Origin: a virus
Reading direction: 5' to 3' (one strand)
Length of the DNA stretch: 64,000 nt
Virus record (IMG/VR): IMGVR_UViG_3300047496_000262
Location: 1 to 64,000 of that record
Made by a program: the position numbers and the translations under genes. Positions within the stretch are counted from its first letter, which is position 1. Every line of letters starts with the position of its first letter. Below are positions 12,271 to 37,859 of this stretch, in pieces. Below the pieces are notes generated by a model. It saw only the letters and a list, made by a program, of their open reading frames with translations. It was not told the origin of the DNA and searched no databases.

Positions 12271-12299
12271 ACACTAGCAGGCTTGTCGCGTTTACGCAA
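12271..12299 (-). promoter_or_regulatory. Sigma70-like promoter with palindrome overlapping -35
   Basis: On the minus strand TTGCGT (12299-12294), 17-bp spacer, TAGTGT (12276-12271). The 14-bp element TTGCG-TAAA-CGCGA (12286-12299) overlaps the -35 box. It would transcribe the HNH gene and the operon below it. One of seven such sites in the window. Confidence 0.7.
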
Positions 12300-12325
12300 G
12301 TGTTGCGCGACCGGTTCGGGGGCGC

Positions 12326-12622
12326 TCAACGCCATTCCCCGGCGATGAACATCTGCATCTTGGAGTCGTGGAATCGGGACCAGTGCCGGCCGCACTGGCA
12401 TCGGGTGAGGATTACCGCCGGTTCGATGATCCAGTAGAAATGATCGGACCGCCACAGGCGCGATTCCGCGATCTCGGATTTGAACCGGGCAATCGGGTGG
12501 CCGTAATCGCAGGTGACCAATTGCAGCGCCTTGGCCCAGACCAAAGGCGGCGGGGCCGGCGTGCTGGTGACCGGTTGCAGCAGCGGGTGATCGCTGGCCT
12601 TGGCGGGCGGGCCGGCCGTCAT
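12326..12622 (-). CDS. Hypothetical protein, 98 aa
   Basis: MTAGPPAKASDHPLLQPVTS. Pro-rich N-terminus, then Cys at LVTCDYGHP and RCQCGRHW, with several Trp/His near the end. ATGA overlap with the stop of the acyltransferase gene supports the start at 12622. No recognised domain. The 160 bases after it, down to the HNH start, hold the promoter above. Confidence 0.7.
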   Translation of the reverse strand: MTAGPPAKASDHPLLQPVTSTPAPPPLVWAKALQLVTCDYGHPIARFKSEIAESRLWRSDHFYWIIEPAVILTRCQCGRHWSRFHDSKMQMFIAGEWR

Positions 12623-13797
12623 AATTGAGCGACCTCGGTAGAGTCCGAATAGATCTGCGCATAGATCGCCCGGCGCATCGGTTCCTCGAACCGCCGATAG
12701 CTGAAATCGGCCACCAGCCACACCATGCCGATGAAGGTCGCGAACGCCACCGGCCAGCCGACGCGCTGAGAGAGCGGCGCCAGCAGCCACAGGATGGGCG
12801 TGTGCAGCAGATAGGCTCCGAAGCTGACCCGGCCCAGCGCCGCCACGGGGGAGAGGATTTGCGGCAGATGATCGCCCGCGACCTGGGCATGGGCCATGAC
12901 CAGTGCCGTGCCGCCGGCCAGCATCTCGGGCGCTATGGCGCGGGTGACAAGCTGGTAGGGGCCGATGGCTTGGAGCACGAGGCCGGTGGCGAGCAGGATC
13001 CAGCCGGTGATGCCGACATGCGGTGCGGCGAACACGGCACGGGCATCCGGCACCGCCCAGGCGGCCATTGCCCCGATGGCGATCATCTCGAACCCAAAGG
13101 CCGAGTTGGCCTCGACCGCGACGATTGAGGCCCCGTTGCAGAGGAGCGCCAGTTTGATGCAGAACCCGCCCCCGGCGATGCAGGCCAGCACCGCGATCAG
13201 ATCGACCGGCCGTGGCAGCCCGCGCACCAGCCACGGATAGGCCAGATAGAATTGCTCCTCGACCGCCAGCGACCACAGCACGACAAAGGCAAGCCCGTAA
13301 TCGGCACCGGAGAAGATGCGGTACCAGTTGCACATGAAGAACGCGATGGAAGCCCCGAACCAGCCATCGCCAAAGGGGGCGTCACCCGCCGGCATCAGCG
13401 CCACCTGATAAAGGTGATCATGCTGGACGGTGAGGGAGATGGCGCCCAGGACGGCCACCAGCATGGCAAAGAGCGGCCAGATCCGGGAAAAGCGCCGCGC
13501 ATAGAAGGCGTGGATGCCTCTACGGGCCGGATCCCACAGGCTGCGGGTGATGACATAGCCCGAGATGGCAAAGAAGATGGTGACGCCCTCGACCCCCAGG
13601 ATCATCAGCCGATTCCAGTGCGGGCTGTCGGCCAGATCGGCGATCGGCACCGCGATGTCGGTGCAGAAGAAATGGGTGACCAGCACCAAGAGGACGGCAA
13701 GGCCGCGCAACACGTCGATGGCGAAGGAGCGGTCAGGGTTCACGGTTGCTTCTCCGATGGCGTGTAACTCGCGTGTGGTTATTTTTATATTTATCAT
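12619..13797 (-). CDS. Acyltransferase-3 family membrane O-acyltransferase
   Basis: 392 aa, multi-spanning inner-membrane protein of the OafA/NodX type. The start MINIKITTRELHAIGEATVN at 13797 leads into FAIDVLRGLAVLLVLVTHFF (TM1). Then come VEGVTIFFAISGYVITRSLW and FYARRFSRIWPLF, both family signatures, LWSLAVEEQFYLAYP, and a series of hydrophobic helices to about residue 370. Such enzymes acetylate surface polysaccharide. In a phage this points to lysogenic conversion of the host receptor (superinfection exclusion). It stands in a coupled minus-strand operon. Confidence 0.92.
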   Translation of the reverse strand: MINIKITTRELHAIGEATVNPDRSFAIDVLRGLAVLLVLVTHFFCTDIAVPIADLADSPHWNRLMILGVEGVTIFFAISGYVITRSLWDPARRGIHAFYARRFSRIWPLFAMLVAVLGAISLTVQHDHLYQVALMPAGDAPFGDGWFGASIAFFMCNWYRIFSGADYGLAFVVLWSLAVEEQFYLAYPWLVRGLPRPVDLIAVLACIAGGGFCIKLALLCNGASIVAVEANSAFGFEMIAIGAMAAWAVPDARAVFAAPHVGITGWILLATGLVLQAIGPYQLVTRAIAPEMLAGGTALVMAHAQVAGDHLPQILSPVAALGRVSFGAYLLHTPILWLLAPLSQRVGWPVAFATFIGMVWLVADFSYRRFEEPMRRAIYAQIYSDSTEVAQL

Positions 13798-14699
13798 CAC
13801 GCCGCCCCTGCGATCAGGCTGGCCTGCGGGTTCAGCCGGGCCGCCAGATCGTGCCACGCCCGAGGCTTTTCGTGGATGATGCGGCCTTCATAGGTCGCCC
13901 CGCCCTTTTCCTTCGGCGCCAGTTCGAGACCCAGGCGCGCGGCTTCTTGCAGAAGGAAGGCGGCGCTGCGCTGGGGGTGATTGACCTTTAATGCCCGCAC
14001 ATAGGGGTTGTTGGACGGGTGCCCGTATTGCTTGAAGTGCAGCGCCGCGCGGGCCAGGGTGGCGGCAGCATGGGCCTGGGCCAGCCAGTGGAACTCCATC
14101 GGCCGGGCGCCGGGGCCGCTTTCGCCGCCGGTCAGGATCCAATCGGCCCCGGTGAAATCAACCTCGTCGACCGGACCGATCAGCGGCTCGACCGAGACGA
14201 AGGCGCAGAAATCGCCCGCCTGATCCTTCAAGCGGCGCAGCAGGTTCATCCGGCCCGCCACCTGATTATCCTCAATGGAAACGCCCAGCCAGATCTGTTG
14301 CGGGATGCCACTGTTGCCGTAGCGATCGGCCATGATCCGCCGCATGCGGACCGGCCGCTTGGTCAGGATCTGAAAGATGATATCGGGGTGGGTCTCGAAC
14401 GCGTCCAGGCATTGATGGATGAAGGCGTCGGGAATGTCCTGATGCCAGAAATCGGACAGGCTGTTGACGAAGATCATCTTGGGCTCAAGCGTTCCGCTTT
14501 CCGTTCTTGTGGGGCGGAACTTGCGGATATCGGCCAAGCGATGCGGGAAGAACGCCATCTGGTCGAAATCGGCCCGCAGCCGGTTATTGACCAGATGTTC
14601 GGCGTAGCAATGGGCGCACCCATCGGAGATCTTGGAGCACCCGCGCGTCAGATTGAGCGTGCCGGTACACCAGGAAATATTCGATGCTAAAACGGTCAT
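13797..14699 (-). CDS. DUF5131 (phage Gp37/Gp68) family protein
   Basis: 300 aa. N-terminal WCTGTLNLTRGCSKISDGCA then HCYAEHL gives the Cys set typical of the family, a radical-SAM-like fold. Next come IFVNSLSDFWH, IFQILTKRP, WLGVSIEDNQ, FVSVEPLIGP and WILTGGESGPGARP, all family signatures in order. The biochemical role is not known. It is the first gene after promoter 14746-14774 and is coupled to the acyltransferase. Confidence 0.93.
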   Translation of the reverse strand: MTVLASNISWCTGTLNLTRGCSKISDGCAHCYAEHLVNNRLRADFDQMAFFPHRLADIRKFRPTRTESGTLEPKMIFVNSLSDFWHQDIPDAFIHQCLDAFETHPDIIFQILTKRPVRMRRIMADRYGNSGIPQQIWLGVSIEDNQVAGRMNLLRRLKDQAGDFCAFVSVEPLIGPVDEVDFTGADWILTGGESGPGARPMEFHWLAQAHAAATLARAALHFKQYGHPSNNPYVRALKVNHPQRSAAFLLQEAARLGLELAPKEKGGATYEGRIIHEKPRAWHDLAARLNPQASLIAGAA

Positions 14700-14745
14700 T
14701 TTCGGTTCCTTTCTTGCTTAGAAGGCGGCAACAGCCTGATCGGGG

Positions 14746-14774
14746 AGTATGCGCGTACGCGAATTTTGATGCAA
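14746..14774 (-). promoter_or_regulatory. Sigma70-like promoter with embedded palindrome
   Basis: Minus strand TTGCAT (14774-14769), 17-bp spacer, CATACT (14751-14746). The spacer holds the 14-bp element (A)TGCG-CGTA-CGCGA (14749-14762). It lies about 50 bases upstream of the DUF5131 start, with GGAACC before the ATG. Confidence 0.65.
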
Positions 14775-14779
14775 GGGAA

Positions 14780-15001
14780 TCATTCAGGCGGCGGTGTGCG
14801 GGCCGGCGGAATGCCGCGCGGATTCTTGATGCGTTCAATTTCGGCGCGGAGTCGGTCGACCTTGTGCTGGGCACAGATCCGGATGAGATCTATCCAAGCA
14901 CTACCGGCGGCTGCGAACTGATCGCCGTTATGAGCCAGCGTCCTGGCATGCACTATCGCCGTCTGAAAGCTAGCCGCAATCGTTTTGTCGTGCTGCGGCA
15001 T
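14780..15001 (-). CDS. Hypothetical protein, 73 aa
   Basis: MPQHDKTIAASFQTAIVHAR. Helical, ending in a Pro-rich tail (NPRGIPPARTPPPE). The start at 15001 lies 32 bases inside the end of the 428-aa gene. It is the last gene before the promoter of the next unit. Function unknown. Confidence 0.65.
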   Translation of the reverse strand: MPQHDKTIAASFQTAIVHARTLAHNGDQFAAAGSAWIDLIRICAQHKVDRLRAEIERIKNPRGIPPARTPPPE

Positions 15002-16256
15002 ACTCCGCACTCCTTTCGGTGTGGCCCATTTCGGCGAACCGGCGCACCTGATCGGCCCGGCGACCCCATAGTCGGGTCCAAATCGCCTCCTCATAAAACG
15101 GTCTTGTCGCCCGGTAATAGGCGTCCTGGTCGGCCTTGCGCCGGTCCATAGAGGTGAAGCCGTCAGTACCGCGGTCGCGCCGCGCTGCATCATCCGTGCG
15201 GGGTTTGACGCGATCCTTGATCAGCGGATGCTGGGCACCGGCCGCCGTCACCCCATAGGGGTTGCCGGTTTCGATCAGCGCCCGGGCCTCGCCGGCCTGG
15301 GCATACACCGCGACCGCCGCCAGTTGGTCCAGCGTCGGCATGTCGCCGAAATAGACGCATAACTGGCAAAGCGGCGTGGTGTTTCCCAAAACGGTGATAT
15401 CCAGGGCGCCATGGCCCACGGTCGCGAGACTGTCGCGGCGCTTGATCTTAAACGCCAGATCGCCGTCGATGATGGTGACCGGATGCCCATGGCGGAACAG
15501 CTTGGTATCGGCCTCTCCGATCACTGCCACGGCAGCGTTATGGCTGCGCGTCAGCATCCGGCGGATCGGGCGGCCAAAGATGGGCGCATTGGCGAACCGG
15601 AGCGCCCGGCTGCCGATGCCCAGATCGGAGAGATCGGACAGGTCCAGTGTGAACGCCTGTTCGCGAATATACGCATAGCGGGCCTCTTGCTGCCGATGGT
15701 GCATATCCAGCACCAGATTGGCCTGCGTCGGGGATTTCGGCATCGGCAAGCCGGCATAATGAGCGCGGAGACCTTGCATGATGCCCAGCTCATCGCTGCG
15801 ACGCACGTAGCGGCGGATCGACGATGGCGCGTGCAGCCGGCGCCGGACCCTGGGCGACGGATCGGCCAGCGTGGTGTTCCACCTGACCCGCCGATACGGT
15901 TGCAGGCACCCGCCCAGAATGCTGTCGGTCAGGTTCCATGAGGCCAGCATCTCGCCGACATCGTTGACGATGTTCGGCTCGAACAACCATGCGCTGGCGA
16001 CGAAGGATTCCTGGATCGGCCGGGGCAGCGTTCGCAACACCGCATGGGCGTGTGCCGATAGCTCCAGCGCCATCTGCGCCATCCGCACGAGAAACGAGCG
16101 GCCCGGACGGTCCTGATCGTGGATCCGCATGATCGTGTCGATATCGCCGAACAGGGTCAGCACCGAGGCATCCAGCAGGGTTAGGTACCAATCGCAGCCG
16201 AGCCCGTCGATGGTGTATTGCACGTCCGGCGGCAGCGGGGCGGCGCGCGGTTGCAT
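14970..16256 (-). CDS. Large hypothetical protein, 428 aa
   Basis: MQPRAAPLPPDVQYTIDGLG. One long uninterrupted frame with phage-like codon use. The N-terminal 110 residues are mainly helical, the middle is Arg-rich (RVRRRLHAPSSIRRYVRR), and a beta-rich core with VTIIDGDLAFKIKRR lies around residues 255-300. There are no catalytic signatures I can name. It starts two bases after the preceding gene's stop. Could be a DNA- or RNA-associated protein given the basic stretches, but that is a guess. Confidence 0.75.
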   Translation of the reverse strand: MQPRAAPLPPDVQYTIDGLGCDWYLTLLDASVLTLFGDIDTIMRIHDQDRPGRSFLVRMAQMALELSAHAHAVLRTLPRPIQESFVASAWLFEPNIVNDVGEMLASWNLTDSILGGCLQPYRRVRWNTTLADPSPRVRRRLHAPSSIRRYVRRSDELGIMQGLRAHYAGLPMPKSPTQANLVLDMHHRQQEARYAYIREQAFTLDLSDLSDLGIGSRALRFANAPIFGRPIRRMLTRSHNAAVAVIGEADTKLFRHGHPVTIIDGDLAFKIKRRDSLATVGHGALDITVLGNTTPLCQLCVYFGDMPTLDQLAAVAVYAQAGEARALIETGNPYGVTAAGAQHPLIKDRVKPRTDDAARRDRGTDGFTSMDRRKADQDAYYRATRPFYEEAIWTRLWGRRADQVRRFAEMGHTERSAEYAAARQNDCG

Positions 16257-16257
16257 C

Positions 16258-16632
16258 TCAGCCGCCGGCCATCGGCTGTATCGCGATGCTTTGGCCGCTG
16301 GCGACCTCCCGGGCGGTCTTGGCCTTGCTCTTTACCGTCGGTCGCTTGGCCGGCTCAGGCGCGTTAATCGTGGTCACGCCAGCCATTTCGACCATATCGG
16401 CGAAATCCTTGTCATGGACCGCCAGTGCCCGCAGCCGGAACGCGTGTTCGGCCTTGTCCAATTCGGTTTTCAACGGCGGTGCCAGCCCGCCCATCCGCGG
16501 CTCGACTAAGAAGAACACGACGCCCTGGGCCATTTTCTTTTCGATGATCGCCAGCATCATGGCGTCCTGTTCCTCGGTCCAGACGATGGTCACATCGCCC
16601 AGGCGGTTCAGGTAGGTGGTGGAGCGGAGCAT
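16258..16632 (-). CDS. Hypothetical protein, 124 aa
   Basis: MLRSTTYLNRLGDVTIVWTE. Compact alpha/beta N-terminus (AIIEKKMAQGVVFFLVEPRM) and a Lys/Pro-rich flexible tail (PAKRPTVKSKAKTA). A ribosome site AAAGGGAAGCCC precedes ATG 16632. Unknown function. Same operon as the 428-aa protein and the DUF4942 methylase. Confidence 0.78.
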   Translation of the reverse strand: MLRSTTYLNRLGDVTIVWTEEQDAMMLAIIEKKMAQGVVFFLVEPRMGGLAPPLKTELDKAEHAFRLRALAVHDKDFADMVEMAGVTTINAPEPAKRPTVKSKAKTAREVASGQSIAIQPMAGG

Positions 16633-16647
16633 GGGCTTCCCTTTCGT

Positions 16648-18087
16648 TTACGGGCGGACCGTGAGTTTCAGCGTTACGGTGTTGCAGTAGGTGCCGGAGG
16701 CGGCAAAGCTGGCGGGCGGCAGATCGTGGAAACGGCCCCCCATCTTTTCGACCAGCGCCCGGAACGCCACCGATTTCTTGGTCTGGCGGAACTCGGTTCC
16801 AGCCGACATGACCGAGACCAGGATGCCGCCCGGTTTCAGGAATTTGAGCGCGTGCAGGACGTGATCAATATCCCGTTCCAGATCGAAGGGCGGATTCATG
16901 ACCACCCGATCATACTGCCTGCCCGCGGTGGGTTCGACCGCAAGGAAATCGGCGAACTGCACATGCCGGTACAGCCCGGTTTCGTCCAGCAGCTTGGCCC
17001 GGCTGACCTCGAACTCGATGCAATCAACGAAGCAGCCGTTCTCCACCGCCAGCCGGGCCAGTGCCCCCTCTCCGGCGCTGGGTTCCAGCACGGTCAGCGG
17101 GGCCTCGGATTTGTCCGGCCATGCGCGATAGAGCGCCGCTTCTTCGATCACCACCTTGGCGACGGCCGGCGGCGACGGATAGAACCCGTAATTCTTGGCG
17201 ACCGCGCGCTTGGGGTTGTCGAAACCCGTCTCCGCGGTCGGGCTGCGCTCCTCGGGGATGGGTGTGTCGTAATACTCGCCCAGGATCTTGTTGACCTTTT
17301 CCAGCAGGTCGTCGCGCTTGAACCAGAGATGGGCGTTACCGTTCATATAGGTGTAGCAGCGGAAGTATTCGGTTTCGCTGACACCCTGGCGCCGCCCCCA
17401 GCCGGCGCCACGATCCAGATCAATCCGATGGATCAGGCTCATCGGCTGGCCTTTATCATCGTCCAGAACGCGCATGGCGCGCTCCACGTCGATGATCTGG
17501 TCGCAACCGCGATAGTTCCAGTGTCCGCTGTCGTTCAGCGCGTGGGAGATGATGATGCGCGAGCCGATCTTCCAACCGTCATGTGAGCGGAACCGCCGGT
17601 CCAGGCTGGAAAAGCAGGTAGCGATGCCGCGCCGGAAGATCATATCCGCATCGGCGGCGAAGGTCTGGAGCGTGGCGATCACGTTATCGACCGTGACCTC
17701 GGGCGGATCGGTGCCCAGTTGTGCCCGTAACTGGCGCTTGGCCGTGGTGTCCATCAGGCTTTCGAGGCCGGTGATTTCGATAATGTGCGCCCAGACATCG
17801 GTGTCGGTCAGGCGCTTGGCGGTCGCCAGATACTTGGCCCGGTCCGGCACGTCGATATGGGCGATGAAGTTTCTCCGTTCGGCCTCTTGCACCAGATTGT
17901 AGCTGTTGGTGGCCGATGGGTAAGCCATCTTGGCCGCCGCCCGCATGGCCTCGGCCGTCGCCGTCAAGGCGTCGTGCGCCCGCTCGAACAGGACCAGCGC
18001 CTGATTGCGGCGGCTGACCAGTTCCTCGATAGTCGGGCGCGGGACCAGGGCGCCATAGGTGGGGTTGCGGTCAGAACCGTCAGGCAT
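16648..18087 (-). CDS. DUF4942 / class I adenine-type DNA methyltransferase
   Basis: 479 aa, start MPDGSDRNPTYGALV. Residues about 20-320 match the DUF4942 layout (NQALVLFERAHDAL, HWNYRGCDQIIDVERAM). The C-terminal third is a SAM-dependent methyltransferase: VLEPSAGEGALARLA (SAM-binding), then VVMNPPFDLERD, the NPPF catalytic motif of N6-adenine methylases. Such fused proteins are common in phages and plasmids and probably methylate DNA to avoid restriction. TAATG overlap with the upstream gene fixes the start. Confidence 0.92.
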   Translation of the reverse strand: MPDGSDRNPTYGALVPRPTIEELVSRRNQALVLFERAHDALTATAEAMRAAAKMAYPSATNSYNLVQEAERRNFIAHIDVPDRAKYLATAKRLTDTDVWAHIIEITGLESLMDTTAKRQLRAQLGTDPPEVTVDNVIATLQTFAADADMIFRRGIATCFSSLDRRFRSHDGWKIGSRIIISHALNDSGHWNYRGCDQIIDVERAMRVLDDDKGQPMSLIHRIDLDRGAGWGRRQGVSETEYFRCYTYMNGNAHLWFKRDDLLEKVNKILGEYYDTPIPEERSPTAETGFDNPKRAVAKNYGFYPSPPAVAKVVIEEAALYRAWPDKSEAPLTVLEPSAGEGALARLAVENGCFVDCIEFEVSRAKLLDETGLYRHVQFADFLAVEPTAGRQYDRVVMNPPFDLERDIDHVLHALKFLKPGGILVSVMSAGTEFRQTKKSVAFRALVEKMGGRFHDLPPASFAASGTYCNTVTLKLTVRP

Positions 18088-19344: not shown

Positions 19345-19378
19345 GGTCGGTTTCCTTTCGTGAAAGAGCGGTGTTGGA

Positions 19379-20212: not shown

Positions 20213-21388
20213 TCAGGCCAGCACGGAAGCCTTGCGGTAGCGCTTGCTGAGAGTCCGCTCGTAGACCGAGGGGACCGGCGCTTCCGGTTCGGCCGCGGTC
20301 GGTTCCGCCGCCGGTTCATCCGCATCCGGGGTCGGATCGACGACCGCTTGCGGCTGGGCGGCCGCTTCTTCTTCCGCTTCCGGCACGGGTTCCGGCACGG
20401 GGGTCGCTTCCGGTGCCGGTGCCGGGGCCGCCAGACGCGGTGTCGTGCCCTCCAGAATCATCTGGATGCGCTTGGCATAGTCCGCGGCTTTTCTCAGGTG
20501 CTCATCGCGAATGACCCGGGGCAGATCCATGTTCTCCGCTTGGGCCAGATTGCGGGTTTCGTGCGCGCGTAGTGCGGCCAGGGTGCCCTTCATGGCCGGT
20601 GCCAGCAAGGCCACCGTCTTTACTTCCACCGGCTTATCGTAGCGCAACGGCATCAGGATCAGCGCCGCATTGGGCACCCCGCCGAAGGTGATGACCGTCG
20701 GATCCATCACATTGGATTGCCGCATCAGGTTGACCGAGGTGGCATTCAGGACGGTTGCCAGCGAGCCCACATCTTTCAGATAATTTTGGTTGAAGCTGAC
20801 GAAATCCAGCGGTTCCGAATGTTCAGCACCGCTCATGTCGATGCCGCCGATGACGTGGTTGTAATCTGGGAAGGTGCCGTGCACCGGCGCCATCCGCAGC
20901 GCGATCTCGTTCCAGTAATCGGTGACCTCCAGCTTGGCCGCCTTGTCGCCATAGCCGATGCGGCAGAACACCTGCAGGCCGCGCTGGGTGCTTTCCTTCA
21001 AGAGCTTGAACCGGCCCTTGAACAGCCCCAACGGGACGATAACGCCCTGGTGCAACCACGACGGCAATTCGTCATCCACATCGGGATCGAACGAGGCGAT
21101 GAACAGGCGATGCCCATCGGTCGAGACCACCCGCACCACACCGTCATGCGCGTGCAGAAAACAGCCGTTCAGGTAGTACCGGGTTTCTTCCGTCGAAGCG
21201 CATGACATTGCCGCTTCGATCAGGTGGAGCGGCGCGTTGATATAGGACAAGGGCTGCACCCGCTCCGCTTGCGGCTCGACCGGGGCTTCCGCGACCGGGT
21301 CCTGGTCGGCGACAAGACGAAAATCGTCCGCACCATCATCTGTGATGGCAGCGGCAGCAACATTGGTATCGGCATCGAAGGGTGACAT
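20213..21388 (-). CDS. DNA polymerase III beta-subunit-like sliding clamp
   Basis: 391 aa. Residues 50-300 have clamp features: PLHLIEAAMSCASTEETRYY, NGCFLHAHDGVVRVVSTDGH then RLFIASFD (the clamp STDGHRL signature), and a cleft-like LLKESTQRGLQVF. A 90-residue Pro/Glu/Ala-rich tail and a basic terminus (SKRYRKASVLA) are extra to the family. It should encircle DNA and tether the polymerase or other partners. It is the first gene behind the strong promoter 21457-21485 and is divergent from the terminase side. Phage-encoded clamps of this type are uncommon. Confidence 0.85.
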   Translation of the reverse strand: MSPFDADTNVAAAAITDDGADDFRLVADQDPVAEAPVEPQAERVQPLSYINAPLHLIEAAMSCASTEETRYYLNGCFLHAHDGVVRVVSTDGHRLFIASFDPDVDDELPSWLHQGVIVPLGLFKGRFKLLKESTQRGLQVFCRIGYGDKAAKLEVTDYWNEIALRMAPVHGTFPDYNHVIGGIDMSGAEHSEPLDFVSFNQNYLKDVGSLATVLNATSVNLMRQSNVMDPTVITFGGVPNAALILMPLRYDKPVEVKTVALLAPAMKGTLAALRAHETRNLAQAENMDLPRVIRDEHLRKAADYAKRIQMILEGTTPRLAAPAPAPEATPVPEPVPEAEEEAAAQPQAVVDPTPDADEPAAEPTAAEPEAPVPSVYERTLSKRYRKASVLA

Positions 21389-21456: not shown

Positions 21457-21485
21457 TTTATAGCAGAATTTTCGCGCGAACGCAA
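21457..21485 (-). promoter_or_regulatory. Sigma70-like promoter of the clamp gene
   Basis: Minus strand TTGCGT (21485-21480), exactly 17 bp, TATAAA (21462-21457). The element TTGCG-TTCG-CGCGA (21472-21485) overlaps the -35. Best-scoring promoter by eye on the minus strand. The remaining bases up to 21681 hold no convincing gene. Confidence 0.8.
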
Positions 21486-26009: not shown

Positions 26010-26029
26010 TACCGCGGCCGGAAGGTGCT

Positions 26030-26390
26030 TGAGAGACAGGACCTGCCGCACCGAACCCGGCCCGACCCCGCCGCGCCCCACCTTGACTGCATGACCAGGA
26101 CGCGCCGCGACGTAACGAGCCTTGACCCACCACGACCGCCCTGACTCGCCTTAACCGGCCAAGCACACCTCGCCTCGACCGCCAGACCGTGACGCGACAG
26201 ACAAGGCCTAGACCCACCTTGACTGCCGAACCCGGAACAAACACGACGGGCCCGGCCAAAACAAGCCCTGACCGCCTTGACGGTCGCACCGGAACGCGCC
26301 TCGACACGCCATACCTCAACGTGCCCCACCTTGCCTGAACCCACCTCAACACACCAAATTTGGACCGTCTAACCTTCCTTGACCGCGGCT
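26030..26390. repeat. Convergent intergenic array of degenerate CCTTGAC repeats
   Basis: About 360 bases between converging operons made of imperfect units of 10-12 nt. On the plus strand CCTTGAC or close variants recur (CACCTTGACTGC, GAGCCTTGACCC, ACCTTGACTGCC, GCCTTGACGGTC, CCTTGACCGCGG), with alternating ACC/GCC. The same kind of unit occurs at 2100-2290. Open frames in it give low-complexity proteins, so it is taken as non-coding. Confidence 0.75.
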
Positions 26391-26391: not shown

Positions 26392-26709
26392 CTAAGCCGC
26401 CATATCCGCCTCATTATCCGGCGGATCCTGCTCCGACCCGTCGTCGTCACCGCGTTGAATCGCGCGGATTTCGGCGTCGATGCCGGTAATTTGTTGCACC
26501 AGAAGCGCGCGGTTGCATCTCAGCCGGCCCAGCAGAAGTTCGTTTAGCGCCATGATAGTACGAACGTACACCGGAACCGGCAGATCGCCGCTGACCCATC
26601 GATAAACCGTGTTCAGGGCACAACCGGCCTGGGCGCCCAGTTGCCGGCGGCTGATGCCCAGCGTCTTCAGCGCGGCATTCAGCGATTTTCCATCGGTGAT
26701 CGGGCTCAT
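26392..26709 (-). CDS. HTH DNA-binding regulator, 105 aa
   Basis: Residues 8-45, LNAALKTLGISRRQLGAQAG then CALNTVYRWVSGDLPVP, form a lambda-repressor-like helix-turn-helix. A second helical part carries LLLGRLRCNRALLVQQITGI, and the tail is acidic (GDDDGSEQDPPDNEADMAA). Likely a Cro/CI-type or transposon-Xre regulator. Coupled to the 71-aa gene. It could be the reader of one of the palindromes listed in this annotation; no evidence which. Confidence 0.85.
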   Translation of the reverse strand: MSPITDGKSLNAALKTLGISRRQLGAQAGCALNTVYRWVSGDLPVPVYVRTIMALNELLLGRLRCNRALLVQQITGIDAEIRAIQRGDDDGSEQDPPDNEADMAA

Positions 26710-26921
26710 GATGGTCCTTCCCCGGTGGCGTACCGCAACGACGTGATCGTAAAGGCCGATGGCCCGACCCTGATGCCGCCCAGCATTTCGGCCGGCACCA
26801 GCGGATTGATGCCGGCACCGGCCTTGTTGGCGACCTCGACCGCGCCCAGGAGCGTGGCGGCCAGACCGACGGTGCGGCCGTCCAGGACAACCCGGCGGAT
26901 GCGTTCTGCCCGGGCGCTCAT
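26706..26921 (-). CDS. Hypothetical protein, 71 aa
   Basis: MSARAERIRRVVLDGRTVGL. Small beta/alpha protein with Val/Ala/Gly-rich core (AATLLGAVEVANKAGAGINP). ATGA overlap with the 68-aa gene supports the start at 26921; its end overlaps the HTH gene. Function unknown. Confidence 0.7.
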   Translation of the reverse strand: MSARAERIRRVVLDGRTVGLAATLLGAVEVANKAGAGINPLVPAEMLGGIRVGPSAFTITSLRYATGEGPS

Positions 26922-27124
26922 GCCGCCTGTTCCAGGGCTTCGGCCAGGGCGTACCAGCCGGCGATATGGCGGAGGTCCATGGTGATGACCTGGGCGTCGT
27001 CCGTGGTCAGACGGCCCATCGCGTAGCGCCACGCCATGCGGAAGCGATTGGCCTTGTGGGCGACGCGCTGGCGGAGATGCCAAAGCTGATACTGCACCTC
27101 GCGGAGCGGGGGATTGTGAATCAT
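26918..27124 (-). CDS. Hypothetical helical protein, 68 aa
   Basis: MIHNPPLREVQYQLWHLRQR. Basic N-terminal helix, acidic middle (TTDDAQVITMDLRHIAGWYA). It is the first gene downstream of promoter 27195-27223, with AGGAAAGGCAACG upstream of the ATG. Sits ahead of the HTH regulator, so perhaps a co-expressed partner. No family recognised. Confidence 0.75.
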   Translation of the reverse strand: MIHNPPLREVQYQLWHLRQRVAHKANRFRMAWRYAMGRLTTDDAQVITMDLRHIAGWYALAEALEQAA

Positions 27125-27194: not shown

Positions 27195-27223
27195 GGTCTA
27201 TCAAGGATTTCGCGCGAGCGCAA
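27195..27223 (-). promoter_or_regulatory. Sigma70-like promoter of the HTH regulator operon
   Basis: Minus strand TTGCGC (27223-27218), 17-bp spacer, TAGACC (27200-27195, weak -10). TTGCG-CTCG-CGCGA (27210-27223) overlaps the -35. Drives 27124 down to 26392, which includes the HTH gene, so autoregulation through this palindrome is possible. Confidence 0.62.
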
Positions 27224-27230: not shown

Positions 27231-27644
27231 CTATGACGCGCACATCTCCGCGGCACAGCCCACCTCGCTGTGGAGCGTGACCGAACGCTGCTGCCATCTT
27301 CCCTCCCGGCGGCCGGCGCGGGCGTCATCGTCGAAGCGGATGCCTTCCGGCCAGACACCGGGATTCCGGGGCGGGATCAGGTTGGGCGGGCGCACCCGTT
27401 CCGCCTTGATATCGGCGGCATAGCTGGCCCGAACCTTGGTCATGGTCTGGGCCAGGATGGCGCGGCGGATCTCCTTGCTTTTGACCAGCTTCATCCGCTG
27501 CGCGACATGGACCAGCCCGCCCATGGTGAGCACGAAGGGGTGACATTTAGCGTTGATCATCGGCAGCAGCACCGAGTTGGGCGTATCGCGATAATGTTCG
27601 GCCACCATCGCGTCGATCAGCGGTTTCAGTTGCAGCCGATCCAT
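27231..27644 (-). CDS. Hypothetical protein, 137 aa
   Basis: MDRLQLKPLIDAMVAEHYRD. Helical first 80 residues with basic patches (VHVAQRMKLVKSKEIRRAIL), then a flexible basic tail. Its start overlaps the stop of the XRE regulator by one base. The 3' end lies eight bases from the next promoter. Unknown role; basic character suggests nucleic-acid contact. Confidence 0.72.
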   Translation of the reverse strand: MDRLQLKPLIDAMVAEHYRDTPNSVLLPMINAKCHPFVLTMGGLVHVAQRMKLVKSKEIRRAILAQTMTKVRASYAADIKAERVRPPNLIPPRNPGVWPEGIRFDDDARAGRREGRWQQRSVTLHSEVGCAAEMCAS

Positions 27645-28120
27645 CAGCCGGCCCCCAGATTCGCAATGGCGCGCGAGTATTTATTCCAGGAGGCCGCGAC
27701 CGAGATCACATGGGCGGGATCACGGCCCAGGATCCGTTGGCGCAATTCCCACCGGATGATGATGTCGCGTTCCTTGCGGGATCGGATGGATTGGAAAGGC
27801 TCCATCAAAGCCCGCATGTCGGTGATGCCGGCCAACTCGGCCAAGTCATCAATATCGGTGGTGCTCTCCACCAGCGCGCGGACCCGATCAATGTCCGATA
27901 TCCGTTTCGATTTGATGAGCATCGGCACCTCCTCTGCACCGTCACTTTCCTGCCGGCGGCGCATCAGCGCCTCGACCGCCAATTGGACCGCGCGCGATAT
28001 GGTGACATGACAATTCTCGTACATGCAAACCGTTATTCTGGTGACGCCCAGGGCTTGCGCGAACAGGCGCTGGGTCAGGCCCAGATCGTGCCGGCACTGC
28101 CGAATCTCCGCCCCGGTCAT
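27644..28120 (-). CDS. XRE-family transcriptional regulator, 158 aa
   Basis: MTGAEIRQCRHDLGLTQRLF then AQALGVTRITVCMYENCHVT is a clear HTH_3 domain in residues 1-45 (the LGVTRITVxxYE recognition helix). The rest is helical (IDDLAELAGITDMRALMEPF), maybe for dimerisation. An in-frame extension to 28210 exists but would swallow two GCCAAAACGG repeats, so 28120 is preferred. Those repeats, 21 bp apart just upstream, are probable operators. Candidate repressor of lysogeny or replication control. Confidence 0.85.
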   Translation of the reverse strand: MTGAEIRQCRHDLGLTQRLFAQALGVTRITVCMYENCHVTISRAVQLAVEALMRRRQESDGAEEVPMLIKSKRISDIDRVRALVESTTDIDDLAELAGITDMRALMEPFQSIRSRKERDIIIRWELRQRILGRDPAHVISVAASWNKYSRAIANLGAG

Positions 28121-28178
28121 CGGATCCCCGGCGTCCAGATGCGGCGGTAACTCGGTCGTGCCCAGCCGCAACCGTTTA

Positions 28179-28215
28179 CGAATCGCCAAAACGGGCCTCC
28201 GAATCGCCAAAACGG
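28179..28215. promoter_or_regulatory. Paired GCCAAAACGG operator-like direct repeats
   Basis: CGAATCGCCAAAACGG occurs at 28179-28194 and again at 28200-28215. The copies are 21 bp apart, two helical turns, on the same face of the DNA, and lie 60-95 bases upstream of the XRE start. The same core is found twice at 35871-35916 and once at 35666-35676. Confidence 0.65.
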
Positions 28216-29714: not shown

Positions 29715-30008
29715 TCAGACTTCAAAACTTACGGTGGCGAGAAAGCCGCTGGTATCCACGAGAACGCCCGAGGGGATTCTATCCAGCCGCACGGCATCGC
29801 TGGTGCCGAACACATCTCTCCTGATCCGGGTCAGCATATTTTGGAACAGGTCCGAATTTGCAAAACTTCCATATCGAGGGTGCCGGCGAAACGCGCTCAT
29901 ATCGCAATGAGAGCGCTTTAATTCCGGCACCCTGATGCACCGATACGCTAGGGAGTCGTCGTGATTAAACACGTCTATGACCTTGGATTTGAACGATATC
30001 CGTGCCAT
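29715..30008 (-). CDS. Hypothetical protein, 97 aa
   Basis: MARISFKSKVIDVFNHDDSL. First gene behind promoter 30062-30090, with AAAGGAAACGGTA before ATG 30008. Lower G+C and AT-rich codons compared with its neighbours. Middle carries RSHCDMSAFRRHPRYGSFAN. No recognised family. Confidence 0.75.
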   Translation of the reverse strand: MARISFKSKVIDVFNHDDSLAYRCIRVPELKRSHCDMSAFRRHPRYGSFANSDLFQNMLTRIRRDVFGTSDAVRLDRIPSGVLVDTSGFLATVSFEV

Positions 30009-30061: not shown

Positions 30062-30090
30062 GAGTGTCGCGCAAACGCGAGATTGCGTCA
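30062..30090 (-). promoter_or_regulatory. Sigma70-like promoter with central palindrome
   Basis: Minus strand TTGACG (30090-30085), 17-bp spacer, GACACT (30067-30062). The spacer contains TCGCG-TTTG-CGCGA (30066-30079), the most symmetric copy of the shared element, here between -35 and -10. Confidence 0.68.
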
Positions 30091-30195
30091 ATCGCTGATC
30101 GCCGCGTAGGCGCGAATTTCTGCCCCATCGACGGATCCGGTAGAAGATGAATGCGTCGGCTTAGGCGGCCGGCGCATCCATCCGCTATCGGGGTG

Positions 30196-30766: not shown

Positions 30767-30779
30767 CGACTAGGATGGT

Positions 30780-31067: not shown

Positions 31068-31096
31068 TACTCTCTCCTTCCATGTTGCTGCCGCGC

Positions 31097-32217: not shown

Positions 32218-32267
32218 TCCATCGGTTCCTTTCGTTTGGCTTCCAATCACAGCTTGACTGGCAGTCA

Positions 32268-32296
32268 TATCATGCGCGTTTGGGAGATAATGTCAA
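32268..32296 (-). promoter_or_regulatory. Promoter upstream of the 208-aa gene
   Basis: Minus strand consensus -35 TTGACA (32296-32291); 17 bp on is ATGATA, a weak -10. A degenerate (A)TGCG-CGTT-TGGGA half-site lies in the spacer. The remainder of the gap 32297-32602 shows a 13-bp palindrome TTGGGTATCCCAA (32394-32406) that could be an operator for the plus-strand replication genes, and nothing else convincing. Confidence 0.55.
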
Positions 32297-32602
32297 GCGA
32301 AATCATACGTGAGATAGGAGTGATGGCGACGAGGCCCGTTTGAGCGCCACCGGGCCCGCCGATATCGCCTGATCGGCCAGCTATGCGTCGATATTGGGTA
32401 TCCCAACCGTTATGTATGCTTAATTCGCATTGCGGAATCTACCTATGCCTGCGCTAGCTTGGGGGACAGCGGCGGGTCACTGATTTGTTGCGGGCGGGAT
32501 GAAGGGAAGTGCAGGCCCTCCGTTCGCCGATCGGTAAACCGCCTAAAAGACCGCCCCCTTGTCACGAGGCGCGGCCCGCCGCTGTTCCGCAGCTTTTGGG
32601 GG

Positions 32603-32713
32603 ATGAGGGGTCACCCGCCTATGTCTAGCCGGAATGCCGGCGCCCGTCCGAACGGATGGGCGTTACCGGGATCATATTGTCTGGCGTCCCCCGTCGATGG
32701 GTGTGGGCGCTGA
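32603..32713 (+). CDS. Possible 36-aa leader protein
   Basis: MRGHPPMSSRNAGARPNGWA then LPGSYCLASPVDGCGR. The stop TGA (32711-32713) overlaps the ATG of the 62-aa gene as TGATG, which suggests translational coupling. The ribosome site is poor (GGGGG touching the ATG) and composition is not decisive. Confidence 0.35.
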   Translation: MRGHPPMSSRNAGARPNGWALPGSYCLASPVDGCGR

Positions 32714-32901
32714 TGACCGCCGAGGATCATGTCCGCTCAATGGAGGCGGTGATGCTGTCGGTGCAGATCCTGGTGATGAATTTGATACCGCGACCCCGGG
32801 AGGAACAGCGGCTCCAGATCGTGACCTGGGCGGCGACCGGCAAGCTGCCCCGGCCGATGGCGGATATCCTGCTGGATGAATTGGGGCTGGCGGCACCATG
32901 A
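32713..32901 (+). CDS. Hypothetical helical protein, 62 aa
   Basis: MTAEDHVRSMEAVMLSVQIL. All-helical, acidic/hydrophobic, ending GKLPRPMADILLDELGLAAP. It is coupled to the primase gene (ATGA overlap) and heads the replication operon, so it may assist replication. No family assigned. Confidence 0.7.
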   Translation: MTAEDHVRSMEAVMLSVQILVMNLIPRPREEQRLQIVTWAATGKLPRPMADILLDELGLAAP

Positions 32902-33941
32902 GGGACCAGCGGTTTAGCCCGGCGGAACTGGCGCTGGCGGAATCCAGGGTCAATCTGCCGGCGGAGGTCGGCCGCCATATCAAGTTGACCAAGCAGGGCC
33001 GGGCCTATGTGGGGCTCTGCCCGTTCCACGGTGAGAAGACGCCGTCGTTTTATGTCTATCCCGACCATGTTTATTGCTTTGGCTGCGGCCAGTACATGGG
33101 TTCTATTGGTTTTTTAGCATTTATGTATAATAAATCCTTCCGCGAGATGGTGGTTGAACTGATCGGCGAGGCGGGCAGCCCCACCAGATTTTTGGCCCAG
33201 ATGCGGAGTGCGTCGGACCAGTACCGGCCGGAGGCGGATGACGCGGACCGGTACAAGGCGTCGCTGGCCCGCGATATATTTTTCAGCGCGGCCCAAGCGG
33301 AGGGGACGCTGGTCGAGACCTATTTGAAGGCCCGCGGGATCAGGGCCCGGGTTTCCAGCCAGATCAAATTCGTGCCGGATTTGGAGCATTGGGATCCGGT
33401 TGGCGAGAAGGCGACCCGATGGCCGGCGTTGGTGGCGGGGATCCAGACGGGGGCGGGGAGTATCGTTGCGTGCCAGCGGACTTGGCTCCGGCCCGATGGG
33501 GCGGGCAAGGCCCCGGTTCCGCATGTCAAGAAGACGTTGGGCAAATTGTATGACGGGGCGATCCGGCTGAACAGCCCGACGCATTGCCTGGGGCTGGTGG
33601 AGGGGCTGGAGACCGGGCTTTCGGTGCGGGCGATCTACCACATACCGGTGTGGGTGGCGTGTGGCCGGCGGATGGACCAGGTGGCGGTGCCCAAATCGGT
33701 GGAGGAAGTGCTGATCTTTGGGGATAATGGGGAGCCCGGGCATAAGGCGGCTGAGAAGGCGGCGGCTTTCCATTCGAGGAAGGGACGGCGGGTCGAGATC
33801 CTTTATCCGGATCAGGATTATGGTGATTTCAACGATGTCTTGCTGGGGCGGAAGCTGCCGGGTGCGCGTTCCCTGGTTCCGTCTGGCCCGGTTGTGGTTG
33901 AGGCGGCCCCGCCCCGGTCGAGACTGGTTGCGATGGTGTGA
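32898..33941 (+). CDS. DNA primase with CHC2 zinc finger and Toprim domain
   Basis: 347 aa. CHC2-type zinc finger in residues 40-66: GLCPFHGEKTPSFYVYPDHV then YCFGCG (Cys, His, Cys, Cys). A Toprim-like segment follows: CLGLVEGLETGLSVRAIY and VLIFGDNGEPGHKAAEKAAA, with the Glu and the Asp typical of the metal site. It synthesises RNA primers at the replication fork. Followed by a RecA-like ATPase that overlaps by GTGA, forming a primase/helicase pair. No polymerase gene is seen in the window. Confidence 0.93.
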   Translation: MRDQRFSPAELALAESRVNLPAEVGRHIKLTKQGRAYVGLCPFHGEKTPSFYVYPDHVYCFGCGQYMGSIGFLAFMYNKSFREMVVELIGEAGSPTRFLAQMRSASDQYRPEADDADRYKASLARDIFFSAAQAEGTLVETYLKARGIRARVSSQIKFVPDLEHWDPVGEKATRWPALVAGIQTGAGSIVACQRTWLRPDGAGKAPVPHVKKTLGKLYDGAIRLNSPTHCLGLVEGLETGLSVRAIYHIPVWVACGRRMDQVAVPKSVEEVLIFGDNGEPGHKAAEKAAAFHSRKGRRVEILYPDQDYGDFNDVLLGRKLPGARSLVPSGPVVVEAAPPRSRLVAMV

Positions 33942-35152
33942 TCGACGGGGATGATGAGGGCTGGCGTGCGTCGGCGGGTAATGCTGCCGATCGTCTAAAA
34001 CCGCTTCAGGGTTTTACCGGTGCGTCGTGGCATGGGCGCCAGCCGCCGCCCCGCGAGTGGTTTGTCGAGGATTGTTTTCCCAAGAACAATGTCGGGCTGG
34101 TGTCCGGCGATGGTGGTTTGGGGAAAAGCCTGCTGATGCACCAGCTTTGCATTGCGGCGTCGACCGGGCAACCATGGCTGGGGTTGCAGGTGGCGCGGTG
34201 CCGCTCGCTGGCGTTGTTCTGCGAGGATGACCCGGATGAGTTGGAGCGCCGGCACCATGCGATCTGCCGGTCGATGGGTGTCGAGGTGGCGGATACCGAT
34301 GATTTCATGATGGTGAGCCGATCGGGTGAGGAATCGGTGCTGATGGAGTTTGACCGGAAGGATGACCGGGCGAAGCCGACCCGGTTTCTGGCCCAATTGG
34401 AGGATCTGATCTGGGATTGGGGTGCCCAGATCGTGATTCTGGACACCGCGGCGGATGTGTTCGGCGGGAATGAGATTGTGCGCAACCAGGTCCGCCGGTT
34501 TGTGATGCGGCTGAAGGCGATTGCGACGCGGATCAGTGGGATTGTGGTGCTGACCGCGCACCCTAGCGTGTCGGGCATGTCGAGCGGTTCGGGGATATCG
34601 GGGTCGACCGCGTGGAATAATTCGGTTCGCGCCCGGCTTTATCTGACGGCCCCGAAGGCGGCGTATGAGGATGACACGTCGGACCAGGACCGTGATGTCC
34701 GGGTGCTGAAGACGATGAAGATGAATTACGGCCCGGCGGGATCGAAGGTCCGGGTTCGGTATGTCGATGGGGCTTTCCAGCGGATTGAGGGGGAGGAGTA
34801 TTCGGAGCCCGCGGCTGGTGATCGGCAGGTCTCCCCGTCCGGTCGGATCGAGCGCCTGACCGCGGACCAGCAGATCTTGAAGGCGATGCGCGAGGTGATT
34901 GCCCGTGGCGGCAAGATCAGCCCGCTCAGCCGTGCGCGCACCGGGATCCATCTGGTGCTGCATGGCGAGGGGTTCTGCACCGATCTTAAGCCCGGGTATT
35001 TGCGGAGCTTCGTCGACCGCGGGCTGTCGGCGGGTTTACTCACCACGGTGGTCCTTGTCGATCGGGGGCGTCGTGAGCGCAGTTATATCCGCCCGTTGGA
35101 CTGCCGATACCCCGAGGAGCCTCGCCCGGGCGATCTCCCGTCTTCTACCTAA
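33938..35152 (+). CDS. RepA/AAA_25-type replicative ATPase (helicase-like)
   Basis: 404 aa, GTG start 33938 in GTGA overlap with the primase stop. Walker A VSGDGGLGKSLLMHQL near residue 54, Walker B-like LALFCEDDPDE, VILDTAADVFGG and VLTAHPSVSG, the order seen in RepA/AAA_25 hexameric helicases. The C-terminal 100 residues look like a winged-helix appendage. Expected to unwind DNA with the primase at the origin. Iterons start directly after its stop. Confidence 0.9.
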   Translation: MIDGDDEGWRASAGNAADRLKPLQGFTGASWHGRQPPPREWFVEDCFPKNNVGLVSGDGGLGKSLLMHQLCIAASTGQPWLGLQVARCRSLALFCEDDPDELERRHHAICRSMGVEVADTDDFMMVSRSGEESVLMEFDRKDDRAKPTRFLAQLEDLIWDWGAQIVILDTAADVFGGNEIVRNQVRRFVMRLKAIATRISGIVVLTAHPSVSGMSSGSGISGSTAWNNSVRARLYLTAPKAAYEDDTSDQDRDVRVLKTMKMNYGPAGSKVRVRYVDGAFQRIEGEEYSEPAAGDRQVSPSGRIERLTADQQILKAMREVIARGGKISPLSRARTGIHLVLHGEGFCTDLKPGYLRSFVDRGLSAGLLTTVVLVDRGRRERSYIRPLDCRYPEEPRPGDLPSST

Positions 35153-35163
35153 GATCTGCCGCG

Positions 35164-35423
35164 TTCACTCGGTGTCGCGTGCACGCACTCGCGCTCTCAC
35201 TCGCACCCCGATCCGCGACAGCGCCGCAGAACGGTGCTAAGCCCATGATTTTGCTTGCTCTCACTCGTGCGTTTTTGCGGCGCATAGATCGACGAGTGGG
35301 AGCGCCACCCAGCGCATAGCTCCACCAGCCGTTCTGCTCGCACTCGCGCTCCCACTCGCACTCATGTCATCGACAACGGTGCAGACCGCCGTTAACCCAT
35401 TGATATCGTTTGCTCTCACTCGC
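35164..35423. repeat. Iteron-like CTCnCACTCGC repeats, candidate replication origin
   Basis: Core (C)TCnCACTCG occurs at 35194-35204, 35258-35267, 35337-35347, 35349-35359 and 35413-35423, inverted at 35293-35302, with shorter forms at 35184-35193. Two longer diverged units also repeat: the segment ending at 35267 and that ending at 35423 both carry GCAGA...GCT(T/C)...TGnTTTGCTCTCACTCG-like order. The stretch lies between the replicative ATPase and an AT-rich tract (35480-36000). No gene is apparent in 35153-35577. Confidence 0.62.
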
Positions 35424-35577
35424 GCTCCTTGTGCGCTGTCTACGAGCATGCTCGGTATCTATCCAGCGCATGACGATGACACTTGACGGCGTATTTTTTT
35501 TGACCCCATCTCAGCAGCGCTCAGGTGGATAGACTAACCTCGACCCATCTCAGCCCGGTCGTTCATACACACCTGTA

Positions 35578-35805
35578 TCAAGACCATTTCCATACCCATT
35601 CCCCCAGAACCCTACATCCAGATGTGTTTACGCGACCCTTCTCGTAAATGAGAAATTCCGCCCTTCCCAAAACGGTCTTTCGTTTTATGAGTGTGGCTTC
35701 AGGATTTTGACGCTCCCATAGAGAAAGGGCGATGTCGTAAGAAAAAGATAAGTATAGAGATGTCGCAATCGAAGAATATACACCCATCCAAGCAGGCCTA
35801 TACAT
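35578..35805 (-). CDS. Possible 75-aa protein in AT-rich region
   Basis: MYRPAWMGVYSSIATSLYLS then FSYDIALSLWERQNPEATLI. Only GGA five bases before the ATG. The region is much more AT-rich than other genes, and a CCCAAAACGGT motif falls inside. It may be a chance frame. Confidence 0.25.
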   Translation of the reverse strand: MYRPAWMGVYSSIATSLYLSFSYDIALSLWERQNPEATLIKRKTVLGRAEFLIYEKGRVNTSGCRVLGEWVWKWS

Positions 35806-35916
35806 AGAGATCCAGAAAACAATGCTTCAAATACCGTCAACAGACCTCAATATATGCAGGTCAGATCCAAAAATGCCAAAACGGTCTTTTGTATATCCGG
35901 AAAATGCCAAAACGGT
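35666..35916. promoter_or_regulatory. GCCAAAACGGT repeats in the AT-rich region
   Basis: AAATGCCAAAACGGT at 35871-35885 and 35902-35916 (31 bp apart) and CCCAAAACGGT at 35666-35676. Same core as the pair upstream of the XRE regulator at 28179-28215, so these are likely binding sites for one protein controlling this region. Confidence 0.6.
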
Positions 35917-35946
35917 ACTTGTATGTTACCCGTAGGGGGCAGGGTT

Positions 35947-35992
35947 GGGTAATATTATTACCCACTTGTCGCGCTTACGCGGAATATATAAA
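35947..35992 (+). promoter_or_regulatory. 17-bp palindrome and promoter-like element
   Basis: GGGTAATA-T-TATTACCC (35947-35963) is a perfect palindrome. Directly after it TTGTCG (35966-35971) is followed by TATAAA (35987-35992) at a short 15-bp spacing. TCGCG-CTTA-CGCGG (35969-35982) fills the spacer. It points to the plus strand, where only repeats lie until 37.8 kb. Confidence 0.5.
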
Positions 35993-36059
35993 AAATGGGG
36001 CGAAGGATCCAGAATCAGTCCACGATTCGCGTTGATGATAGAGATCTACCTTAGCTTCG

Positions 36060-36780
36060 AGGTCTGGATCTATGGCGGGCGGTAGCAACACCTCCCCCTA
36101 CCCCCTCCACCCCGCGCTCGCTGGCGGGATCGGCGGAGCGGCGCTGGTGGCGCGCGCGGCTGGTAGGCGATCGCCGGCAGCGGCCAAGCGCTGGCAGCCG
36201 CGGCCCGCGCTCCGTCGGTCGCGGTGGGCCCGTTCCGCCGCGGCTACAGGGTAGCAGGCGGCTGCAGCCTCGCCGTGCTGGCGACTGGCAGGATCAGGCC
36301 AGGGTGGCGCGGGCAGGCCTCGCGGTGCTGCCGACGGCTGGCCCAGCTCGCGCTGGCAGGATCAGGCCAGGGTGGCGCGGAATCGTAATAAATCGCATAT
36401 GGCGTATTATGAAAAATGCTAAGGCATTGATATTGCGCGATTGCACGCGGAACGGGTGCGGCGACACACGCAAGGGTGCGAGAAATCAAGATATAGCGGG
36501 TGTCTAGGTGCTGATCGGAGCGGAGATGGTCGGATCAGCGGCTGGCGCAGCTCGCCTATCGGGTGGCGCAGGCCTCGCGGTGCTACCGATCAGGCCAGGG
36601 TGGAGCGGCTGGCGCTGGCGGGTGGCGGCAGGCGCTGGCGGGTGTCGCCGATCAGCGGCGGCAGGATCAGCGGCGGCACGGTCGGAGATAGAGCTGGCAG
36701 GCCTCGCGGTAGCGTCGCCTCGCGGTGCTACCGATCAGGCCAGGGTGGAGCGGCTGGCGCTGGCGGGTGGCGGAGATGGT
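36060..36780. repeat. GC-rich direct-repeat region without genes
   Basis: Built from repeated phrases. A 56-bp exact direct repeat (36573-36628 and 36718-36773) starts CCTCGCGGTGCTACCGATCA. A 26-bp phrase starting CTGGCAGGATCAGGCCAGGG occurs at about 36287 and 36352. Many GCTGGCG and GCGGCAGG copies lie between. All frames give Gly/Ala/Arg low-complexity products. A short AT-rich island (36380-36510) separates two halves. No coding gene supported. Confidence 0.7.
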
Positions 36781-36783
36781 CGC

Positions 36784-36817
36784 AAAAAAAGAGGCCTGCC
36801 GATTATGGCAGGCCTCT
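36784..36817 (-). terminator. Rho-independent terminator of the 149-aa gene
   Basis: Perfect 11-bp stem AGAGGCCTGCC / GGCAGGCCTCT (36790-36800 and 36807-36817), six-base loop. On the minus strand it is followed by seven T residues (36784-36790 read as A on the plus strand). It starts 22 bases after the stop of 36839-37288. Confidence 0.92.
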
Positions 36818-36838
36818 GATGTTAGGCGATGGTGGCGA

Positions 36839-37288
36839 CTAGCTGGCCTTGCGGAGCGTCGCTTTCGTCACAGGTGCCTCAGCGGCAGGTGCCGGCGCGG
36901 CAGGTGCCTCAGCGGCGGGTGCCGGCGCGGCAGGTGCTTCGACGATAGGCGTGCGGTAAGGTGCTTCAAATTCTTCTATCTTATCGCTGTACCATTTCAC
37001 TTTCGCCGCATTCTCTTCTCTGTCCTTACGAGAGCGAGTCGCGTCATCGACGACGGCTTGGCAACGGGTGATGTGCGCGCGGTACGCGGCAATCGTGCCG
37101 CTGTGGGGATTCTTCACAGTGGAAGGCTTCGTAGCCGTGCTGGCTTGTGCCGTCGGCATGACGATCAGCAAAGAGCCGGGGAGGGAAGCGAAAGTGTAGG
37201 CGCGGGCGCCGACGATAGGCGATTTCACGCTTTCGATGTCGCTCGCGTCAAGGATGGCGCGAAGTGTGGAGGCGAGCAATTCAGACAT
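36839..37288 (-). CDS. Hypothetical protein with Ala/Pro tail, 149 aa
   Basis: MSELLASTLRAILDASDIES, AAAGGAAAC before ATG 37288. Residues 1-60 are alpha/beta (GARAYTFASLPGSLLIVMPT), then a charged helix (RSRKDREENAAKVKWYSDKI). A tail carries two exact tandem copies of APAAPAPAAEAP, a low-complexity repeat that probably forms a flexible linker. Unknown function; own terminator downstream. Confidence 0.78.
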   Translation of the reverse strand: MSELLASTLRAILDASDIESVKSPIVGARAYTFASLPGSLLIVMPTAQASTATKPSTVKNPHSGTIAAYRAHITRCQAVVDDATRSRKDREENAAKVKWYSDKIEEFEAPYRTPIVEAPAAPAPAAEAPAAPAPAAEAPVTKATLRKAS

Positions 37289-37340
37289 GATGTTTCCTTT
37301 CAGATTGTGCCGGTGCAGGATGCAGCGGCTGGCTTCGTGC

Positions 37341-37392
37341 TGATCGCACGCCACTAGGCTAGCTGTAAGGCCAGCCTAGAAGCCTGCGATCA
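37341..37392 (-). other. Nested intergenic hairpin
   Basis: Outer arms TGATCGCA / TGCGATCA (37341-37348 and 37385-37392) enclose inner arms CTAGGCT / AGCCTAG (37354-37360 and 37373-37379). It sits between the 75-aa and 149-aa minus genes and has no T-run. Possible processing or attenuation signal. Confidence 0.45.
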
Positions 37393-37393
37393 G

Positions 37394-37621
37394 TCAGGCA
37401 CGTCGATACGAAGGATCGAAATCGAACGCCTTGATGCCAGCCATACGCGCGCGGCTGTACTTGGCGCGCATGCCGCACAGGCGGAGCAAGGTAATCTCAG
37501 TCAGCGTGAGCGGGATTTCATACTTCGGCTGTGGCGCGGCCTTCGTGATGCAGAAGGAGAGGGAAAGCCTGCCGATTTGGACGAAGCGCAAGCCGCCGAC
37601 TTTGAATGTACGAAGGCGCAT
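37394..37621 (-). CDS. Hypothetical basic protein, 75 aa
   Basis: MRLRTFKVGGLRFVQIGRLS. Arg-rich, strand-rich N-terminus and LTEITLLRLCGMRAKYSRAR later. AGGAAAGGATAATCC before ATG 37621 and a good promoter 37691-37719 behind it. May bind nucleic acid. Function unknown. Confidence 0.72.
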   Translation of the reverse strand: MRLRTFKVGGLRFVQIGRLSLSFCITKAAPQPKYEIPLTLTEITLLRLCGMRAKYSRARMAGIKAFDFDPSYRRA

Positions 37622-37690
37622 TGGATTATCCTTTCCTATTGGTTGCCGCTGCCGGGTGGTTAGCGGGATCAGCGTCTTGCCGATAACGAG

Positions 37691-37719
37691 AATGTACGCG
37701 ATGAACGGATGGCAGTCAA
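37691..37719 (-). promoter_or_regulatory. Sigma70-like promoter of the 75-aa gene
   Basis: Minus strand TTGACT (37719-37714), 17-bp spacer, TACATT (37696-37691). About 70 bases upstream of the start codon. Diverges from the virion-side promoter at 37831. Confidence 0.72.
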
Positions 37720-37830
37720 TAGGAAATATCGACGGCAGGGAGATTATTATATGGCGTGTCGATATCGCAGGGATGAAATCGACGTGCAATCAGCGCATAG
37801 CGCGGCGCAAGGTCATGCAAAGATCGCCAC

Positions 37831-37859
37831 TTGCGTTTACGCGAGTCGCGTGGTATAAT
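37831..37859 (+). promoter_or_regulatory. Near-consensus promoter facing the virion module
   Basis: TTGCGT (37831-37836), exactly 17 bp, TATAAT (37854-37859, perfect -10). TTGCG-TTTA-CGCGA (37831-37844) overlaps the -35. Strongest plus-strand promoter by eye. The 250 bases to the first gene show no other good frame and a seven-G run (37864-37870). Confidence 0.85.

Follow-up and report, generated by a model that had tools for sequence, protein, structure and literature searches.

In lambdoid phages, the CI and Cro operators are dyads that overlap core promoter elements, with RNA polymerase being excluded, and the operators of lambda cluster at two control regions. Dispersed operators are already known in other phages. 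In the mycobacteriophages L5/TipsytheTRex, the site of one repressor is dispersed over the phage genome as operators and stoperators (PMC9283540). In Cluster K mycobacteriophages, extended start-associated sequences form repeated inverted repeats upstream of a subset of genes (PMC3203893). Here, we describe a 14-bp dyad, TYGCGYNNRCGCRA, in an uncultured virus (record IMGVR_UViG_3300047496_000262, 79,848 bases); the window analyzed by the sequence-only reading that preceded this work comprises bases 1-64000 of that record. The dyad resembles the L5/TipsytheTRex sites in that many copies of one site occur in promoters and intergenic spaces (PMC9283540), and the Cluster K elements in being an inverted repeat upstream of only some genes (PMC3203893). 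However, its symmetry, size and promoter register set it apart from both. L5-type sites are asymmetric 13-bp sequences, oriented with transcription, bound by a monomer and present in more than 20 copies, whereas the present site is symmetric, 14 bp long and located in promoter cores, with strict copies numbering 5 (about 5-9 copies in all). The Cluster K elements have 17-bp arms and a variable spacer and are tied to translation starts with no fixed -10 register (PMC3203893), whereas a fixed register was found here. None of the related phages was found to have the present sequence set.

The record is apparently incomplete because the gene for the large subunit of ribonucleotide reductase (RNR; 2-2029, minus strand) is cut at its first base. 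This gene also contains an in-frame, intein-like insert of the LAGLIDADG type. Komagataeibacter phage phiKX1 encodes relatives of the major head protein and of the tail sheath, and, for the protein encoded at 16648-18087, one MAG relative carries the label Rhodospirillales; thus, judged by these sequence relatives, the host is likely an alphaproteobacterium. Noncoding DNA makes up 15.8% of the genome. In addition, an Eco57I-type methylase gene adjoins a BsuBI/PstI-type restriction endonuclease gene at record positions 75596-77330, and CTGCAG occurs 5 times versus roughly 27 expected by base composition.

An intergenic dyad above chance

The sequence-only reading had proposed seven palindromes of the form (T/A)(T/C)GCG-N4-CGC(G/A), with no such sites inside genes. 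All seven were present where it had placed them, except that the one given at 30066 is better placed at 30067-30080, a shift of 1 bp. The consensus itself, however, was not enriched (21 matches on both strands of the window versus 25.3 +/- 6.1 in shuffles), and five merged places in the window that match it are coding (2506, 3249, 8440, 12459 and 46571). The seven sites are:

12286-12299, minus strand: exact dyad TTGCGTAAACGCGA (minus strand), facing gene 11644-12162, an HNH endonuclease according to Pfam/PHROGs
14749-14762, minus strand: weaker dyad ATGCGCGTACGCGA, upstream of DUF5131 gene 13797-14699 (minus strand)
21472-21485, minus strand: exact dyad with TTGCGT-17-TATAAA, facing DnaN-like/processivity-factor gene 20213-21388 (minus strand)
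27210-27223, minus strand: exact dyad with TTGCGC-17-TAGACC, facing an operon of genes 26918-27124, 26706-26921 and 26392-26709 (minus strand), the third of which is HTH-like
30067-30080, minus strand: exact dyad TCGCGCAAACGCGA, upstream of gene 29715-30008 (minus strand)
35969-35982, strand undefined: near dyad TCGCGCTTACGCGG, within a 1.7-kb noncoding region
37831-37844, plus strand: exact dyad TTGCGTTTACGCGA with TTGCGT-17-TATAAT, facing the virion operon (38122-38919, portal 38950-40662, major head protein 44517-45887)

When the consensus was tightened to TYGCGYNNRCGCRA, which was done only after the sites had been seen, 5 exact copies were identified in the 79.8-kb record (12286, 21472, 27210, 30067 and 37831), where order-4 Markov copies of the genome led to an expectation of 0.21, and order-3 Markov copies of its noncoding part to one of 0.06. 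All five are intergenic and none lies in coding DNA, according to a coding mask that is approximate (gene calls of a codon-usage script with genes added by hand). We also performed a motif-independent screen in which 7,422 palindromic patterns (5-bp arms, spacers 0-12) were ranked by intergenic bias, and forms of the TYGCGYNNRCGCRA dyad took the top rank. Some pattern equalled this top score in 36 of 1,000 trials with a randomly rotated coding mask; thus, the intergenic bias by itself is only moderately significant. In a genome-wide count of dyads that made no coding/noncoding split, the motif was not among the top 30. A site repeated above chance and outside genes is what a regulon of dispersed phage-repressor operators would show.

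A matrix built from the five strict sites alone was then scanned across the whole record. At a score of at least 14, it matched 6 intergenic positions and no coding one; at a score of at least 12, the matches were 10 intergenic and 1 coding. The matrix recovered 14749 and 35969 and added two places, so that the regulon probably extends past the range of the earlier reading:

2295-2308, minus strand: dyad with a mismatch in one arm, TCGCGCTAACGGGA, upstream of the truncated RNR gene
72361: added matrix site, upstream of the gene at 72416

Two weaker dyads, at 2327 and 2348, accompany the site at 2295 with spacings of 32 and 21 bp, near whole helical turns. The large noncoding region (35150-36840), which contains ctcactcgcgctc repeats and is possibly an origin or packaging region, also has weaker matrix matches, at 35175 and 35622. 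A match at 73464, before a tRNA-Met gene, was left out, being weak and overlapping the end of a gene. It should be noted that three other noncoding tracts (2100-2270, 26020-26390 and record positions 71880-72240) show a rhythm of about 5 bp, with units such as CCTTGAC/CTCGAC/GCC, and that two of the three directly adjoin dyad sites (2295 and 72361).

Promoter register of the dyad

The claim that TTGCG serves as the -35 element at four sites was correct for 12286 (minus), 21472 (minus), 27210 (minus) and 37831 (plus), and their shared spacing was statistically strong. The 17-bp spacer had been ascribed to six of the seven sites, which was overstated, as it is convincing at these four only. At exactly 17 bp, the four have TAGTGT (12271-12276, paired with TTGCGT at 12286), TATAAA (21462-21457, minus strand), TAGACC (27200-27195, minus strand) and TATAAT (37854-37859, plus strand), respectively, as -10 elements. 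Their summed -10 score was 23.0 at spacer 17 and no higher than -4.7 at all other spacers from 8 to 31; it was negative on the opposite strand, and 23.0 was not reached in any of 200,000 random draws from intergenic DNA. Toward their genes, 14749 and 30067 have no good -10 at a distance of 17 bp, and the sites that begin with TCGCG were without the 17-bp register. The site thus overlaps core promoter elements in this arrangement at four places and not at the others. An alternative promoter read from the sequence near 30067, TTGACG-17-GACACT, would place that dyad in its spacer and -10, and a weaker dyad lies close by at 30102. At 35969, AT-rich promoter-like sequence is present on either side, with no clear gene downstream.

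Could the palindrome have arisen by chance, with cTTGCG-17-TATAAT being merely the promoter style of this phage and no regulator involved? In the alphaproteobacterium Magnetospirillum, the -35 motif reads cTTGcc (PMC9549626); therefore, cTTGCG can serve as a -35, and the left half of the dyad is plausible as an alphaproteobacterial one. However, the spacer contains the right arm, CGCRA, whose conservation equals that of the left arm, and the dyad occurs in registers other than the 17-bp -35/-10 arrangement at 30067, 72361 and 2295, which makes a mere promoter style very improbable. To our knowledge, the right arm matches no known sigma element.

In the four promoters, the dyad spans about -35 to -22 and is centred at about -28.5. 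This position bears on a quite unlikely alternative, in which a phage activator binds the dyad, or the dyad draws in a polymerase modified by the phage, to serve a single temporal class of genes. Some of the -10 boxes are indeed poor (TAGTGT and TAGACC), as at activator-dependent promoters, and accessory and virion-side operons alike carry the site. On the other hand, established promoter biology suggests that a centre near -28.5 would correspond to no class I or class II activator position, and that 17-bp spacing with TATAAT or TATAAA would require no MerR-type distortion.

Judged by what is generally known of promoters, a 14-bp dyad with one half as the -35 and the other half within the spacer would suit a dimer that occludes polymerase. 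Because the strict copies are exclusively intergenic, the dyad is symmetric, its register with the -10 is fixed and its orientation is gene-facing, a shared operator is the best explanation. We consider it reasonably probable that a single dimeric DNA-binding protein has TYGCGYNNRCGCRA as its operator; the protein would most likely be a repressor encoded by the phage. Such an operator would be common to accessory, replication, regulator-operon and virion promoters. In the clearest promoters, which have a 17-bp spacer and would be of the housekeeping-sigma type, its TTGCGY half-site would double as the -35 hexamer. A dimer bound at about -35 to -22 would then exclude RNA polymerase. Of the earlier proposal that one regulator wires the operons, the part that fits best is thus an operator shared by several promoter cores, whereas a single regulator for all of them is what we infer.

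Candidate regulators, relatives and host genomes

Two genes of the window were considered as candidates for the regulator on the basis of HTH resemblance alone:

26392-26709, minus strand: candidate regulator, a 105-aa HTH-like protein, in the operon under site 27210
27644-28171, minus strand: second candidate regulator, a 175-aa HTH_3/XRE-like protein

Neither of them could be tied to the TYGCGYNNRCGCRA site, and the structure models of both were too weak for fold matching. The model of the 105-aa protein (single sequence, pLDDT 67.6) has a short N-terminal portion that is helical and a single long helix at the C-terminus, and it had no significant fold match. No relatives turned up in searches with either HTH protein, with the processivity-factor gene or with the helicase. 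If the 105-aa protein is the regulator, it may be autoregulated, as its own operon lies under site 27210. The 175-aa protein might have a different site of its own, CCAAAACGG, six copies of which occur in the genome versus 0.8 expected (28186, 28207, 35667, 35876, 35907 (+), plus 15386 inside a gene); the repeats at 28186 and 28207 adjoin the 5' end of its gene, which suggests this assignment.

Unlike in lambda, no CI-type S24 protein was found here. Neither a tyrosine integrase (PF00589) nor an S24-type LexA/CI repressor (PF00717) was found in the 79.8-kb record, itself incomplete, and a lysogeny switch of the CI type thus lacks an independent indication. A plasmid-like state was unsupported as well, ParA (PF13614) not being found.

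A host transcription factor would also agree with the failure to link any phage regulator to the site, the phage then tapping a host regulon such as that of a stress or metabolic regulator, and a host signal would fit the dispersed promoters, among them those of the RNR, DnaN-like and HNH genes. We regard this as unlikely. Four alphaproteobacterial genomes (3-5 Mb) contain 5-24 copies of the dyad each, about the level of a reversed control pattern (46 versus 37 in all), which is a weak exclusion as these genomes are possibly not the host's. In addition, three of four matches inspected in one of these genomes fall within apparent genes (frames resembling secD, tetR and efflux adaptors).

With regard to related phages, the dyad set was absent from contigs that share the virion module or the 16648-18087 protein, two of which have single copies; thus, evolutionary confirmation was not obtained, and the relatives checked share no regulatory region for comparison. 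A dyad screen of four relatives revealed no comparable element, the top patterns in one of them being a tandem repeat at its ends, and the whole promoter pattern, TTGCGYNNRCGCGA-N9-TATAAT, had no match in the viral contigs searched.

Under the shared-operator reading, one small HTH protein might, by way of the promoter-core dyad, silence nucleotide-metabolism, replication, accessory and virion promoters together as a genome-wide on/off or timing switch, an idea that we hold to be speculative and rather doubtful. A switch of this kind, without a recognised integrase or CI-type repressor, has not been described for this phage group. The shared operator would name promoters and an operator sequence for a group of uncultured contractile-tailed phages, and would provide a short DNA probe that could identify the master regulator of this phage group.
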